Source of the DNA: Desulfobulbaceae bacterium
Lineage (GTDB): Bacteria; Desulfobacterota; Desulfobulbia; Desulfobulbales; Desulfocapsaceae
Direction: 5' to 3'
NCBI GenBank assembly: GCA_026988015.1
Contig: JALSMA010000039.1
Span: forward strand, 1-49,993
Length of the DNA stretch: 49,993 bases
Both the position numbers and the translations under genes were made by a program. The notes beneath the pieces are model-generated. The model was not told the origin of the DNA and searched no databases. It saw nothing but the letters and a program-made list of their open reading frames with translations. Shown one piece after another: positions 47,285-49,897 of this stretch (within the stretch, counting starts at the first letter, position 1; the number at the start of each line of letters is the position of its first letter).

Positions 47285-47364
47285 AGCAGATTTTGAGGAA
47301 AATATACGTTTTTGTATGAGAATAAAATCCCTTATCGGGGATCTGTAATTTGTGGAGATGGATT

Positions 47365-47928
47365 ATGTTAAGTGCTTCTGATTTGCGTAAAGGGCTGAAG
47401 ATACAGATTGATGGTCAGCCATATATTATAACTCATTTTGAGTTTTCAAAGCCTGGAAAGGGCCAGTCTCTTTATCGTTGTAAGATGCGAAATATGATCA
47501 CCGGAAATCAGTTCAGCCAGACATATCGTTCCAATGAGAAATTTGAGAAGCCAGCCCTTGAAGAGCGAAAAATGCAGTATTTGTATAATCAGGGTGATGA
47601 GTACCATTTTATGGACACTGAAAACTATGAGCAGACATTTATTACCAGGGAACAGCTTGGTGAAAATGTGAGTTTTCTCCAGGATAACATGGAACTGGAT
47701 GTTCTTTTTTTTGATGAGAAACCCATTGATGTAACTCTGCCTATTTTTGTGAATCTTGTGGTTACCGTGGCAGAACCCTGGGCTAAGGGGGACACTTCCG
47801 GAAATGATACCAAACCGGTTACAGTCGAAACCGGCTATGTGCTCCAGGTCCCTCCTTTTGTTGTTGAAGGTGATAAAATTCAGATAGATACCAGAACCGG
47901 AGCGTATGTGACCCGGGTGAAAGAGTAG
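47365..47928 (+). CDS. efp: Elongation factor P
   Basis: 187 residues from ATG 47365, chosen because GGAG lies 11 nt upstream and homologues start at this point; the frame opens five codons earlier. The modification loop reads SKPGKGQ, with Lys32 placed like the beta-lysylated Lys34 of E. coli EF-P. Then come KFEKPALEERKMQYLY and the C-terminal VPPFVVEGDKIQIDTRTG. Relieves ribosome stalling at polyproline. The modifying enzyme epmA is the next gene. Confidence 0.96.
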   Translation: MLSASDLRKGLKIQIDGQPYIITHFEFSKPGKGQSLYRCKMRNMITGNQFSQTYRSNEKFEKPALEERKMQYLYNQGDEYHFMDTENYEQTFITREQLGENVSFLQDNMELDVLFFDEKPIDVTLPIFVNLVVTVAEPWAKGDTSGNDTKPVTVETGYVLQVPPFVVEGDKIQIDTRTGAYVTRVKE

Positions 47929-48023: not shown

Positions 48024-48914
48024 ATGCTTGAGATTAAAATGCTGCATCAGCGTGCAGCATTTTTTCAGGCAATCCGAAGATTTTTTCAGGGACAGGGATT
48101 TCTTGAAGTAGACACCCCTGTCCGTCAACCTCTTGTCATTCCCGAACAGAATATCGTTCCGATCCCTTCAGCGGGTCATTTCCTGCAGTCTTCTCCAGAG
48201 TTATATATGAAGCGCCTCCTGGCAGGTGGCTGTGAAAAAATTTTTCAGATTTGCCACTGCTTCAGATCCGGTGAACGGGGACGGCTTCATCTCGAAGAGT
48301 TTGTGATGCTGGAATGGTACCGGTTGGATTGCGGCTACACCAAGCTTATGGGGGATTGTGAATGTCTGTTTGAGTTCCTGGAATCACGGGTGACTCCATG
48401 GCATTTTCCGGTTTCTCTGTGTACTCCCTGGCAACGGATAACGGTGGAAGATGCGTTTCACAAATACTGTTCAATGACTCCAGCTCAGGCTTTGGATCAA
48501 GGGATTTTTGATCTGCTGCTGGTGGAGAAGGTTGAAGCGAATCTGGGCGATAAAACACCCACATTTCTCTACGATTATCCACTGGAACTGGCATCGTTGG
48601 CCCGTTCCAAAGTTGAGAATCCTGGAATTGCAGAACGCTTTGAACTGTATGTTGCGGGGGTGGAGCTTGCCAATGGCTTTTCAGAACTCACGGATCCTGT
48701 TGCACAGCGCGCTCGTTTTATGGAGGAATATGCAGGAATGGAGAATTTTCCTGAAGGTGAAAAAAAGATGCCGGAACTGTTCCTGAAGGATCTTGGGAAA
48801 ATTGAGAGTGCCGCTGGTATTGCAATGGGTCTGGATCGATTGTTCATGCTGATATCTGGGCAGGGGAGTGTGGATGATGCAGTTACTTTTGCACCGGATG
48901 ATCTTGATGTCTAA
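48024..48914 (+). CDS. epmA: EF-P--(R)-beta-lysine ligase
   Basis: 296 residues, a truncated class II lysyl-tRNA synthetase without anticodon-binding domain (EpmA/GenX/PoxA). Motif 2 region CHCFRSGERGRLHLEEF, then ELANGFSELTDP, and motif 3 GIAMGLDRLFML. Attaches beta-lysine to the loop lysine of EF-P. It lies 95 bp after efp in the same direction. The aminomutase EpmB that makes beta-lysine is not in the window. No clear Shine-Dalgarno at ATG 48024; ATG 48039 is an alternative. Confidence 0.94.
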   Translation: MLEIKMLHQRAAFFQAIRRFFQGQGFLEVDTPVRQPLVIPEQNIVPIPSAGHFLQSSPELYMKRLLAGGCEKIFQICHCFRSGERGRLHLEEFVMLEWYRLDCGYTKLMGDCECLFEFLESRVTPWHFPVSLCTPWQRITVEDAFHKYCSMTPAQALDQGIFDLLLVEKVEANLGDKTPTFLYDYPLELASLARSKVENPGIAERFELYVAGVELANGFSELTDPVAQRARFMEEYAGMENFPEGEKKMPELFLKDLGKIESAAGIAMGLDRLFMLISGQGSVDDAVTFAPDDLDV

Positions 48915-48937: not shown

Positions 48938-48965
48938 TTGACAAGGACAATTGAAATGTGATAAT
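48938..48965 (+). promoter_or_regulatory. Strong consensus promoter of the UGA-containing peptide gene
   Basis: Perfect TTGACA at 48938-48943, 16-bp spacer, GATAAT at 48960-48965 preceded by TGT, an extended -10 (TGTGATAAT). It is the best promoter match seen in this window, 94 bp before the peptide ATG. Confidence 0.75.
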
Positions 48966-49058
48966 GTTTCTTAGTTAAGGGGTCAGTTGTTATATTTCTG
49001 ACTCTTTCCTGTCCTTTTCAAAGGGAAGAGGGCATATCTTAAATGTGGAGATTGAACC

Positions 49059-49364
49059 ATGGACACAAAGGAACTGAAAAAGGTCCTTGCTGGAATCGGT
49101 GTCGTCGGCTTGCTGGCCGGTGGCGGTGTTGCCGTTCCAGGTAGTGCCGGGGCCAGCGGTTGAGGTGGTGAAAAACCCAGTGCAGTTGGCACTGACACAC
49201 CCGCAGCCGGTAGTGGCTGAGGCGGAACCAAAGACGACGCAGTTAGCGTCGAAGAACACGCCCAAGATGCTGCCGAAGCAGCTGAAGAAGCAGTTGGAAA
49301 TGCAGAAGAAGCAGTTGAAGATGTGAAAAAAACGCTTCCTCAGCAGAGTGGCTGAAGTGGTTAA
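49059..49364 (+). CDS. Selenocysteine-containing RiPP precursor, SbtA-like (three in-frame UGA codons)
   Basis: A 102-codon frame from ATG 49059 (GGAG 8 nt upstream) to TAA 49362-49364. Read with UGA as selenocysteine (U) it gives a 101-residue peptide. Residues 1-8 are charged (MDTKELKK). Residues 9-33 are a Gly/Val/Leu-rich hydrophobic leader. U35 and U54 each sit in SGUGG. An Ala/Glu-rich helix spans ~62-92 (DAAEAAEEAVGNAEEAVED). The tail is QQSGUSG with U99. TGA codons are at 49161-49163, 49218-49220 and 49353-49355. Each is followed after exactly 14 nt by a hairpin (see separate entries). The leader and repeated Gly-U/Cys-Gly motif match what I recall of the SbtA 'selenobiotic' precursors, modified by the radical SAM enzyme SbtM to thio(seleno)oxazole. 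No maturase or sel gene is in the window. A 34-residue peptide ending at the first TGA is the alternative reading. Confidence 0.82.
49178..49194 (+). promoter_or_regulatory. SECIS-like hairpin for UGA codon 35
   Basis: Stem CAGTGC / GCACTG, loop AGTTG, beginning 14 nt after the TGA at 49161-49163. The total of 17 nt equals the minimal upper stem-loop of the E. coli fdhF SECIS, and the loop has the GU expected for SelB binding. Confidence 0.75.
49235..49251 (+). promoter_or_regulatory. SECIS-like hairpin for UGA codon 54
   Basis: Stem CGACGC / GCGTCG, loop AGTTA, again beginning 14 nt after its TGA (49218-49220). Stem bases differ from the first hairpin while length, loop and spacing are kept. 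Confidence 0.75.
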
Positions 49365-49369
49365 TCTGT

Positions 49370-49385
49370 AAGTGCGGTCGCACTT
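49370..49385 (+). promoter_or_regulatory. SECIS-like hairpin for UGA codon 99, downstream of the stop codon
   Basis: Stem AAGTGC / GCACTT, loop GGTC, beginning 14 nt after the TGA at 49353-49355 and 5 nt beyond the TAA. Being outside the coding region, it is free of protein constraint. It is followed by CTTATTTG, not a run of T, so a terminator role is less likely. Confidence 0.72.
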
Positions 49386-49469: not shown

Positions 49470-49505
49470 AAATACCGATAATGACAAATGTCATTATCGG
49501 TATTT
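49470..49505. terminator. Perfect 17-bp inverted repeat, probable bidirectional terminator
   Basis: Arms AAATACCGATAATGACA / TGTCATTATCGGTATTT with a 2-bp spacer, followed by TGTCTT. It lies between two convergent genes, 105 bp after the peptide stop and 29 bp below the GGDEF stop. The A-start/T-end would give a U-rich tail in both directions. Confidence 0.6.
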
Positions 49506-49534: not shown

Positions 49535-49897
49535 TTAGATTCTGAACACTGTTTTGTTGCGTCCTGAACCTTTTGCCTTATAAAGTAACCTGTCTGCTCT
49601 GTGTAGCAGCTCATCAAGGTTTTTCACGTTCTCATCGGCTTTTATAACACCTGTACTGATGGTGCACTGAATTACAGATGCGCTGCCTGTTTTGATCTTC
49701 AGGGCTGCAACTTTTTCTCGTATGTTCTCCAGCTGTTTTATGACATTCTCCTCAATGGAGTATCTGCAGAGAATGGCAAATTCTTCTCCGCCCAGCCTGC
49801 CAAAGATGGCATCCTGGTGTATACATTTGCCGATGGTTTCCGTCACTGTTTTGATGACAATATCTCCGTAAGCGCCACAACAACCCCATCTTTTTTC
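49535..49897 (-). pseudogene. GGDEF-domain (diguanylate cyclase) C-terminal fragment
   Basis: The minus-strand frame encodes the second half of a GGDEF domain: YGDIVIKTVTETIG, the catalytic loop RLGGEEFAIL (GGEEF), ISTGV, and a helix RADRLLYKAKGSGRNKT. The first half, including the Asp-x-Asp-x-Phe metal motif and the Asn-Asp segment before the Tyr-Gly turn, is missing: the frame meets a TGA at 49898-49900 a few residues before YGD. The only usable start inside is a GTG at 49846, within the domain. A different frame just upstream encodes a short stretch (DTARLEKKDGVVVALTEI) that might be a relic of a sensor domain. Either a deletion/frameshift relic or a sequencing problem; the gene runs towards the window edge. 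Confidence 0.55.

Follow-up and report, generated by a model that had tools for sequence, protein, structure and literature searches.

The SbtA/SbtM system for thio(seleno)oxazole RiPPs, with the precursor family TIGR04081 and the maturase family TIGR04082, was reportedly described by Lewis et al. in 2021. Section 14 of PMC11002830 reports that an SbtM removes four hydrogens from both Cys-bearing and Sec-bearing substrates, and that a thiooxazole is present in the product made from Cys. A 2026 review already lists the family, in a row of Table 1 that reads 'Selenobacteriocin, TIGR04081, SGUG, 2 Sec', and the review's account of multi-Sec proteins places two to three Sec in a small subset of prokaryotic selenoprotein families (PMC13188914). 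Related chemistry is found in the bufferins, described as having Sec-type signal peptides and as holding periplasmic copper by Cys-derived thiooxazoles (PMC12452194). The 5-thiooxazole peptides have been grouped as copper-associated captophorins, and the modified SbtM peptide is listed there among the 305-nm absorbers (PMC12668002). For 5-thiooxazoles derived from Cys, an absorption maximum near 305 nm has been reported. RiPP-lipoproteins have also been reported (PMC12636315).

In our study, a locus of this type was analysed in a stretch of 49,993 bases, the whole of which is called the window and which forms a complete contig. The gene (sbtA) starts with ATG at 49059. A preliminary description had read its frame through TGA codons 35, 54 and 99 to TAA codon 102 (49362–49364), and re-reading of 49059–49364 bore this out. 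With TGA given as U, the product is MDTKELKKVLAGIGVVGLLAGGGVAVPGSAGASGUGGEKPSAVGTDTPAAGSGUGGTKDDAVSVEEHAQDAAEAAEEAVGNAEEAVEDVKKTLPQQSGUSG. The start does not lie further upstream, because an in-frame TGA (49053–49055) stands two codons 5′ of the ATG. The proposed kinship with SbtA-type precursors was supported by the leader, which matched the NCBIfam model TIGR04081 (SbtA family thio(seleno)oxazole RiPP natural product precursor) over residues 1–27, scoring 45.6 bits where the cut-off is 30.5; sbtA was the sole place above this cut-off in its own genome (G000). After the leader, where the family carries Sec (UGA) or Cys in SG(U/C)(G/S), three UGA codons were found in SGU(G/S)G. An SbtM was present in the same genome, its neighbourhood to the precursor gene being usual in the family and not defining.

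The locus shares with the described SbtA/SbtM system the leader family, the SGUG motif, the in-frame UGA and the SbtM homologue in the genome. It differs in having three Sec (up to five in relatives) against the 2 Sec of the review's table (PMC13188914), in the hairpin that belongs to each Sec, the last one past the stop codon, and in the separation of precursor and maturase in the window's genus. The bufferins and captophorins, as presented in PMC12452194 and PMC12668002, are alike in the 5-thiooxazole-type chemistry, the several sites per peptide and the likely export signal. They are made from Cys by MNIO enzymes, whereas the window's system has a radical SAM enzyme, Sec, and no match to MNIO (PF05114) in a search of its own genome, so it is not a member of these groups. 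With the multi-Sec prokaryotic selenoproteins outlined in PMC13188914 it shares several UGA codons per gene; here, in contrast, Sec and hairpin are repeated as a cassette in a small peptide rich in Gly, Ser, Ala and Glu. The DAG-RiPPs, RiPP-lipoprotein hybrids in the account of PMC12636315, resemble it through the lipoprotein-like leader of 12 relatives (by motif only), but the window's leader has no Cys and the maturase family is another one. In the literature searched, with Lewis et al. 2021 outside its scope, we found no cassette structure, no SbtA with three to five Sec, no SECIS past the stop codon in the SbtA family, no unlinked layout as in the window's genus and no lipobox leaders. The features of the locus are listed in Table 1.

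Table 1. Features of the sbtA locus in the window.
Feature	Position	Strand	Basis
Candidate promoter TTGACA-16-GATAAT, sigma-70-like	48938..48965	+	11/12 consensus positions; consensus match only
Ribosome-binding site GGAG, 8 nt 5′ of ATG	49047..49050	+	Sequence
sbtA, precursor of 101 codons with three UGA (predicted Sec), stop TAA	49059..49364	+	Frame reading, TIGR04081 match
Leader, residues 1–33, predicted export signal; TIGR04081 match at residues 1–27; Ala-Gly-Ala near end	49059..49157	+	Profile match and relatives' leaders (inferred)
UGA codon 35, predicted Sec (ASGUGG)	49161..49163	+	Frame reading
Hairpin 1, CAGTGC-AGTTG-GCACTG, SECIS candidate for U35	49178..49194	+	Pairing and covariation
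UGA codon 54, predicted Sec (GSGUGG)	49218..49220	+	Frame reading
Hairpin 2, CGACGC-AGTTA-GCGTCG, SECIS candidate for U54	49235..49251	+	Pairing and covariation
UGA codon 99, predicted Sec, third residue from C-terminus (QSGUSG)	49353..49355	+	Frame reading
Hairpin 3, AAGTGC-GGTC-GCACTT, 3′ of TAA stop, SECIS candidate for U99; competing fold exists	49370..49385	+	Terminal hairpins of relatives

The three TGA codons all stand in SGU(G/S)G, and the claim that chance would hardly produce this held up: none of 200,000 codon shuffles of sbtA gave three such contexts, and 339 gave at least one. In the six frames of the whole window, the motif was found at 4 of 2,091 TGA triplets, three of them inside sbtA. 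The 5′ neighbours of the gene were EF-P (47350–47928) followed by an epmA-like gene (48024–48914, PF00152). An epmA-type gene was found near sbtA in nine of the 11 genus genomes compared, the other two starting at a contig edge; to our knowledge, no functional link connects EF-P or the epmA-type gene with sbtA. On the 3′ side, 629 bases separate sbtA from the contig end, and they contain an open frame on the opposite strand (49535–49846). A long inverted repeat, CCGATAATGACAAATGTCATTATCGG, at 49475–49500 of the window is a possible terminator. Rfam gave no match at gathering score anywhere in the window; at E up to 1 near sbtA, four matches far below gathering (the best being RAGATH-8, 19.6 against 86.7 bits) were rejected. 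The sbtA peptide had no Pfam match at E up to 0.001, and two NCBIfam lipoprotein matches far under cut-off were rejected. The protein database assigns PF27804 to most sbtA homologues.

The own genome was found to contain the machinery whose presence the preliminary description had named as a check, each component above its own cut-off: SelA (contig C71, 302–1663, 597 bits), SelB (C1, 42380–44290, 375 bits), SelD (C17, 37204–38145, 374 bits) and tRNA-Sec (C62, 22377–22470, 76.1 against a gathering score of 47). The SelD frame (L100) contains one internal TGA, and this protein is itself probably a selenoprotein. One place above cut-off was found for SbtM (TIGR04082; C6, 2234–3682, 649 against 350 bits). 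It carries Radical_SAM and SPASM domains, and two solved chains matched it by sequence, SkfB and another radical SAM protein.

We consider it likely that sbtA, with its UGAs read as Sec, encodes a 101-residue precursor which SbtM would convert at Ser-Gly-Sec-(Gly/Ser)-Gly to selenooxazoles. The family match and the Sec reading are, on the sequence evidence, almost certain, and ring formation is judged likely from the published SbtM chemistry. SelB and Sec-tRNA would read each UGA by means of a SECIS hairpin 14 nt downstream, and the Sec codon and its hairpin would be duplicated, and would tend to be lost, as one piece. SbtM would carry out a four-electron oxidation in which Sec and the preceding Gly carbonyl give a 5-seleno-oxazole. 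The modified chain would be exported through a Sec-type signal (a lipoprotein signal in some relatives) and cut just before the first SGU. If this is right, a single small gene directs the placing of three Sec (as many as five in relatives), and every one of them has a recoding signal to itself.

With an E-value limit of 0.001, the SbtA search across the order (193 genomes) gave 96 places in 91 genomes. Ninety of these places were extracted, the own gene included, and six were left out (G167:C90, G044:C241, G058, G077, G086 and G121); one extracted frame begins at a contig edge, part-way through the leader. Frames were ended at 260 residues, and also before a TGA directly after a terminal Sec motif. 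Sites with less than 45 nt of remaining sequence were skipped, and three TGAs that G, S, A or P did not precede were excluded. By number of core TGA, the 90 frames divide into 3 with none, 7 with one, 36 with two, 28 with three, 14 with four and 2 with five; of the three frames without core TGA, two have Cys only and one is cut by a contig end. The window's genus had three or four core TGA in 12 of 12. Around the 229 core U, the conserved residues were Ser at position −2 (217), Gly at −1 (197) and Gly or Ser at +1 (218). A scan of named genomes found 23 sbtA loci, including those of Desulfocapsa sp., Desulfobulbus, Desulfofustis glycolicus and Desulfopila; the gene of D. glycolicus DSM 9705 carries four core UGA.

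The hairpin 3′ of each TGA, absent from the preliminary description, is the strongest evidence that we obtained. In the window's gene the hairpins have 6 bp, and the stem begins 14 nt 3′ of each TGA. A stem of at least 6 bp with its loop 17–22 nt after the TGA was found at 195 of the 229 core sites of the order, whereas 30 rounds of dinucleotide shuffling gave such stems at 7.3 sites on average and at 12 at most. A covariation alignment was built from 112 sites of distinct sequence, picked by loop start 20, loop length 5 and at least 4 pairs; the sites come from related genomes, and some genes contribute more than one. Changes on both sides of a pair were found in 127 cells against a shuffled mean of 42, with all six pairs affected, and the covariation score was 0.554 against 0.275, a value of 0.554 being reached in none of 500 shuffles. 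Pairing was present in 98.5% of cells and in at most 43% for slid control structures; the percentage on these 112 sites is inflated by this selection, the unselected figure being 195/229. An initial loose count of hairpins was rejected as a control, 'other' codons having at least 5 bp in 3,109 of 9,546 cases; it was dropped because codons near a real hairpin score too, and the shuffles and the Cys and Gly sites were used instead.

A stem-loop of the SECIS kind was thus found by comparison 3′ of each UGA of the window's gene, the single-sequence fold of the third site being ambiguous. The z-scores of the single-sequence folds were modest at the three sites (−1.20, −2.21 and −2.22). At the third site, a competing pairing was preferred over the local hairpin in a 40-nt fold, and the local hairpin formed in a 55-nt fold.

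A wider search left 7 of the 229 core TGA sites without a 5-bp stem. In three of the seven (G013, G007 and G105 U50), another Sec TGA follows within a few codons, and its hairpin could serve both; in G024, also among the seven, the second site is now Cys and its hairpin is kept. By eye, one mismatch is seen in G156, an internal deletion seems to have affected G106, and a true stop is the probable reading of G105 U95, one of the 229 core sites. In the loci L068, L079 and L093, a pair of UGA separated by a few codons precedes a single hairpin that both may use. At the core Cys sites, no 6-bp hairpin was present in five of seven; it was kept in G016 and G024, and in the latter a TGA 15 nt upstream could use it. 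Neither of the two core Gly sites had a 6-bp stem, G074 retaining one of 5 bp by eye.

In the main hairpin class, codon +6 after Sec pairs with codon +10. The residue pairs at +6/+10 were S/A (33), S/T (28), G/T (19), D/V (18), G/A (10), N/V (3), G/V (1) and S/V (1). These are amino acids with pairable codons, so the stretches SAVGT, DAVSV and DAGSV are best explained by RNA, and we infer that the hairpin would dictate the residues downstream of each Sec. Whole-cassette copies were found in tandem in G041 (period 63) and G035 (period 78). The Sec codon with its hairpin behaves as a cassette, present one to five times per Sec-type gene.

The third UGA of the window's gene needs separate consideration, since the first two UGAs could be Sec and the third mostly a real stop, in which case the usual product would have 98 residues and two Sec, or would be a mixture of lengths. 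The third hairpin lies past the stop codon, the 40-nt fold prefers the other pairing, and the review's table row gives the family 2 Sec (PMC13188914), all of which fit this shorter product. Against it, the last core U was found within 4 residues of the stop in 58 of the 90 frames, and 54 of these 58 have a stem of at least 5 bp (49 of at least 6 bp) in what is mostly untranslated RNA. The terminal stems differ among relatives with compensatory changes (AAGTGC, AAGTAC, TCGTGC, GAACGC, GCGTGCA). We therefore regard the two-Sec product as unlikely and retain the reading with three Sec. The stop codon of the 58 terminal-Sec genes was TAA in 31, TGA in 20 and TAG in 7. In the 20 TGA-stop cases the spacing of the two TGAs is 6 or 9 nt, and nothing but their distance from the hairpin sets them apart; the second TGA of such a pair would be the true stop. 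If this is right, these genes offer a clean natural setting in which to study how SelB distinguishes a Sec codon from a stop codon.

The leaders were net positive at the start (mean +1.7 over 9 residues), and residues 10–24 were uncharged in 86 of 90. Of the 72 Cys-free leaders, 41 had a strict A-x-A near the first U, where shuffling gave 19.7 on average and 32 at most, a motif count only; a loose A-x-A pattern had fitted all 77 leaders without lipobox and was dropped in favour of the strict form with its control. A lipobox-like Cys motif was present in 12 of 89 leaders, all of relatives. Cys occurred within the first 34 residues of 15 leaders, the three without lipobox having it at position 1 or 3, and in eight of the 90 frames a leader Cys comes first and the TGA after. 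The window's own leader has no Cys. Owing to the positive start, the uncharged core, the A-x-A excess and the lipobox-like Cys, the leader is likely an export signal.

Outside the cytoplasm, the exported peptide might bind a soft metal such as copper, like bufferins and captophorins. Such an exported, selenium-based metal-binding peptide is suggested by the export-like leaders, the bufferin/captophorin and SbtM chemistry and the Met-rich relative G046, and we hold it as a tentative proposal, somewhat short of an even chance. More speculative still is the idea that SbtA is an exported selenium counterpart of the bufferins, a multi-selenooxazole chelator in which binding residues multiply by copying of the Sec-plus-SECIS cassette and the hairpin writes the intervening amino acids. 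If right, this would give a testable link of selenium with thiooxazole-type metal-binding peptides. In G046 (L095), 28 Met were found in the 133 residues after the leader, with MMDRDDMPM repeats beside a Sec site. The share of Met was 22% in G046 and 13% in G071 (L081), with a median of 1.4% in the set. Met-rich repeats are copper(I) ligands.

In the 35 compared loci that contain both genes, where neighbours were unannotated, no neighbour family besides SbtM exceeded seven members, and the genomic context therefore gives the metal role no support. The same count bears on the view that the product is a bacteriocin-like antimicrobial, for which the name 'selenobacteriocin' in the review's table row speaks (PMC13188914): no immunity or transport gene is generally attached to the loci, and the lipoprotein-like leaders of 12 relatives would anchor the product to the cell. 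We regard an antimicrobial role as improbable, and the metal-binding proposal is preferred to it.

The occurrence of SbtM was compared with that of SbtA in the 193 genomes, and both were found in 90, SbtA only in 1, SbtM only in 18 and neither in 84 (Fisher p ~4e-35, relatedness uncorrected). SbtM was counted at E up to 1e-60, and 3 of its 108 genomes were under cut-off. The 18 genomes with SbtM and without an SbtA match (for example G004, G028 and G110) perhaps have divergent precursors missed by the query. The linkage count took a single SbtA place from each genome. Outside the window's genus, SbtM lay less than 1 kb from SbtA in 56 of 79 genomes; among the other 23, it was on a different contig in 16, at 1–10 kb in 5 and at more than 10 kb in 1, and 1 had no SbtM. 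Within the window's genus SbtM was never beside sbtA, being on another contig in 11 of 12 genomes and more than 10 kb away in one (G033, ~604 kb). No SbtM was found within ~4 kb on both sides of sbtA in eight genus genomes, nor in the window. Contig ends weaken the non-linkage for some drafts, G140, G151 and G167 having a stretch of ~2 kb and the window 629 bases on the 3′ side. An APH-family phosphotransferase gene (PF01636) was found near SbtM in 8 of the 12 genus genomes.

The separation in 12 of 12 genus genomes could suggest that Sec is present without a ring and that bare selenols act in redox or metal binding. SbtM was nevertheless found in all 12 of these genomes and in 90 of the 91 SbtA genomes of the order, and the residue before Sec, the would-be ring partner, was Gly at 197 of 229 sites. 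We regard bare selenols as improbable and continue to favour conversion by SbtM.

SelB was above cut-off in 82 of the 91 SbtA genomes and in 165 of 193 overall, as judged from E-values. It was weak, and judged under cut-off from the E-value, in G020, G029, G086, G089, G105, G156 and G167, and gave no match in G090 and G155; all nine genomes are drafts, and G029 has Cys only. The tRNA-Sec was above gathering score in 171 of the 193 genomes and in 5 of 14 controls. Only matches above gathering were counted, because weak matches to the model occurred in every one of the 193 genomes and 14 controls.

Two further points of the preliminary description were checked against the relatives, namely whether homologues truly end at codon 34 and whether Sec or Cys is conserved. 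The first was not the case, and the relatives' sites stay TGA or become Cys, rarely Gly. That sbtA is a 34-codon frame ending at the first TGA, with the remainder due to chance or decay, is the way gene callers treat 14 of 22 database homologues, but it is extremely improbable given a TGA after the leader in 88 of the 90 frames, Cys in the other two and TAA or TAG first in none, together with the hairpin covariation and the empty result of the 200,000 context shuffles. Exchanges were found inside single genera: G013 has TGA at a site where G024 has Cys, G062 and G016 differ in the same way at the C-terminal site (TGA and Cys, respectively), and at another site G090 and G097 have TGA, G074 and G026 Gly. 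Between the nearest relative and the window's gene, 5 synonymous and 7 non-synonymous changes were found in the 63 codons after the leader, too few for protein constraint alone to be decisive.

The genes of this family are missed or mis-stated in databases. Among the 22 database homologues, the 14 mentioned end at the first Ser-Gly, that is, at the first TGA, seven have Trp at Sec positions and one has Cys at the first sites. The Trp (P0002–P0007 and P0013) apparently comes from gene prediction under translation table 4, with TGA taken as a sense codon. In two relatives, L084 (G038) and L098 (G029), SbtA was found with Cys only, without a 6-bp hairpin and with SbtM adjacent, and these constitute a Sec-free branch.
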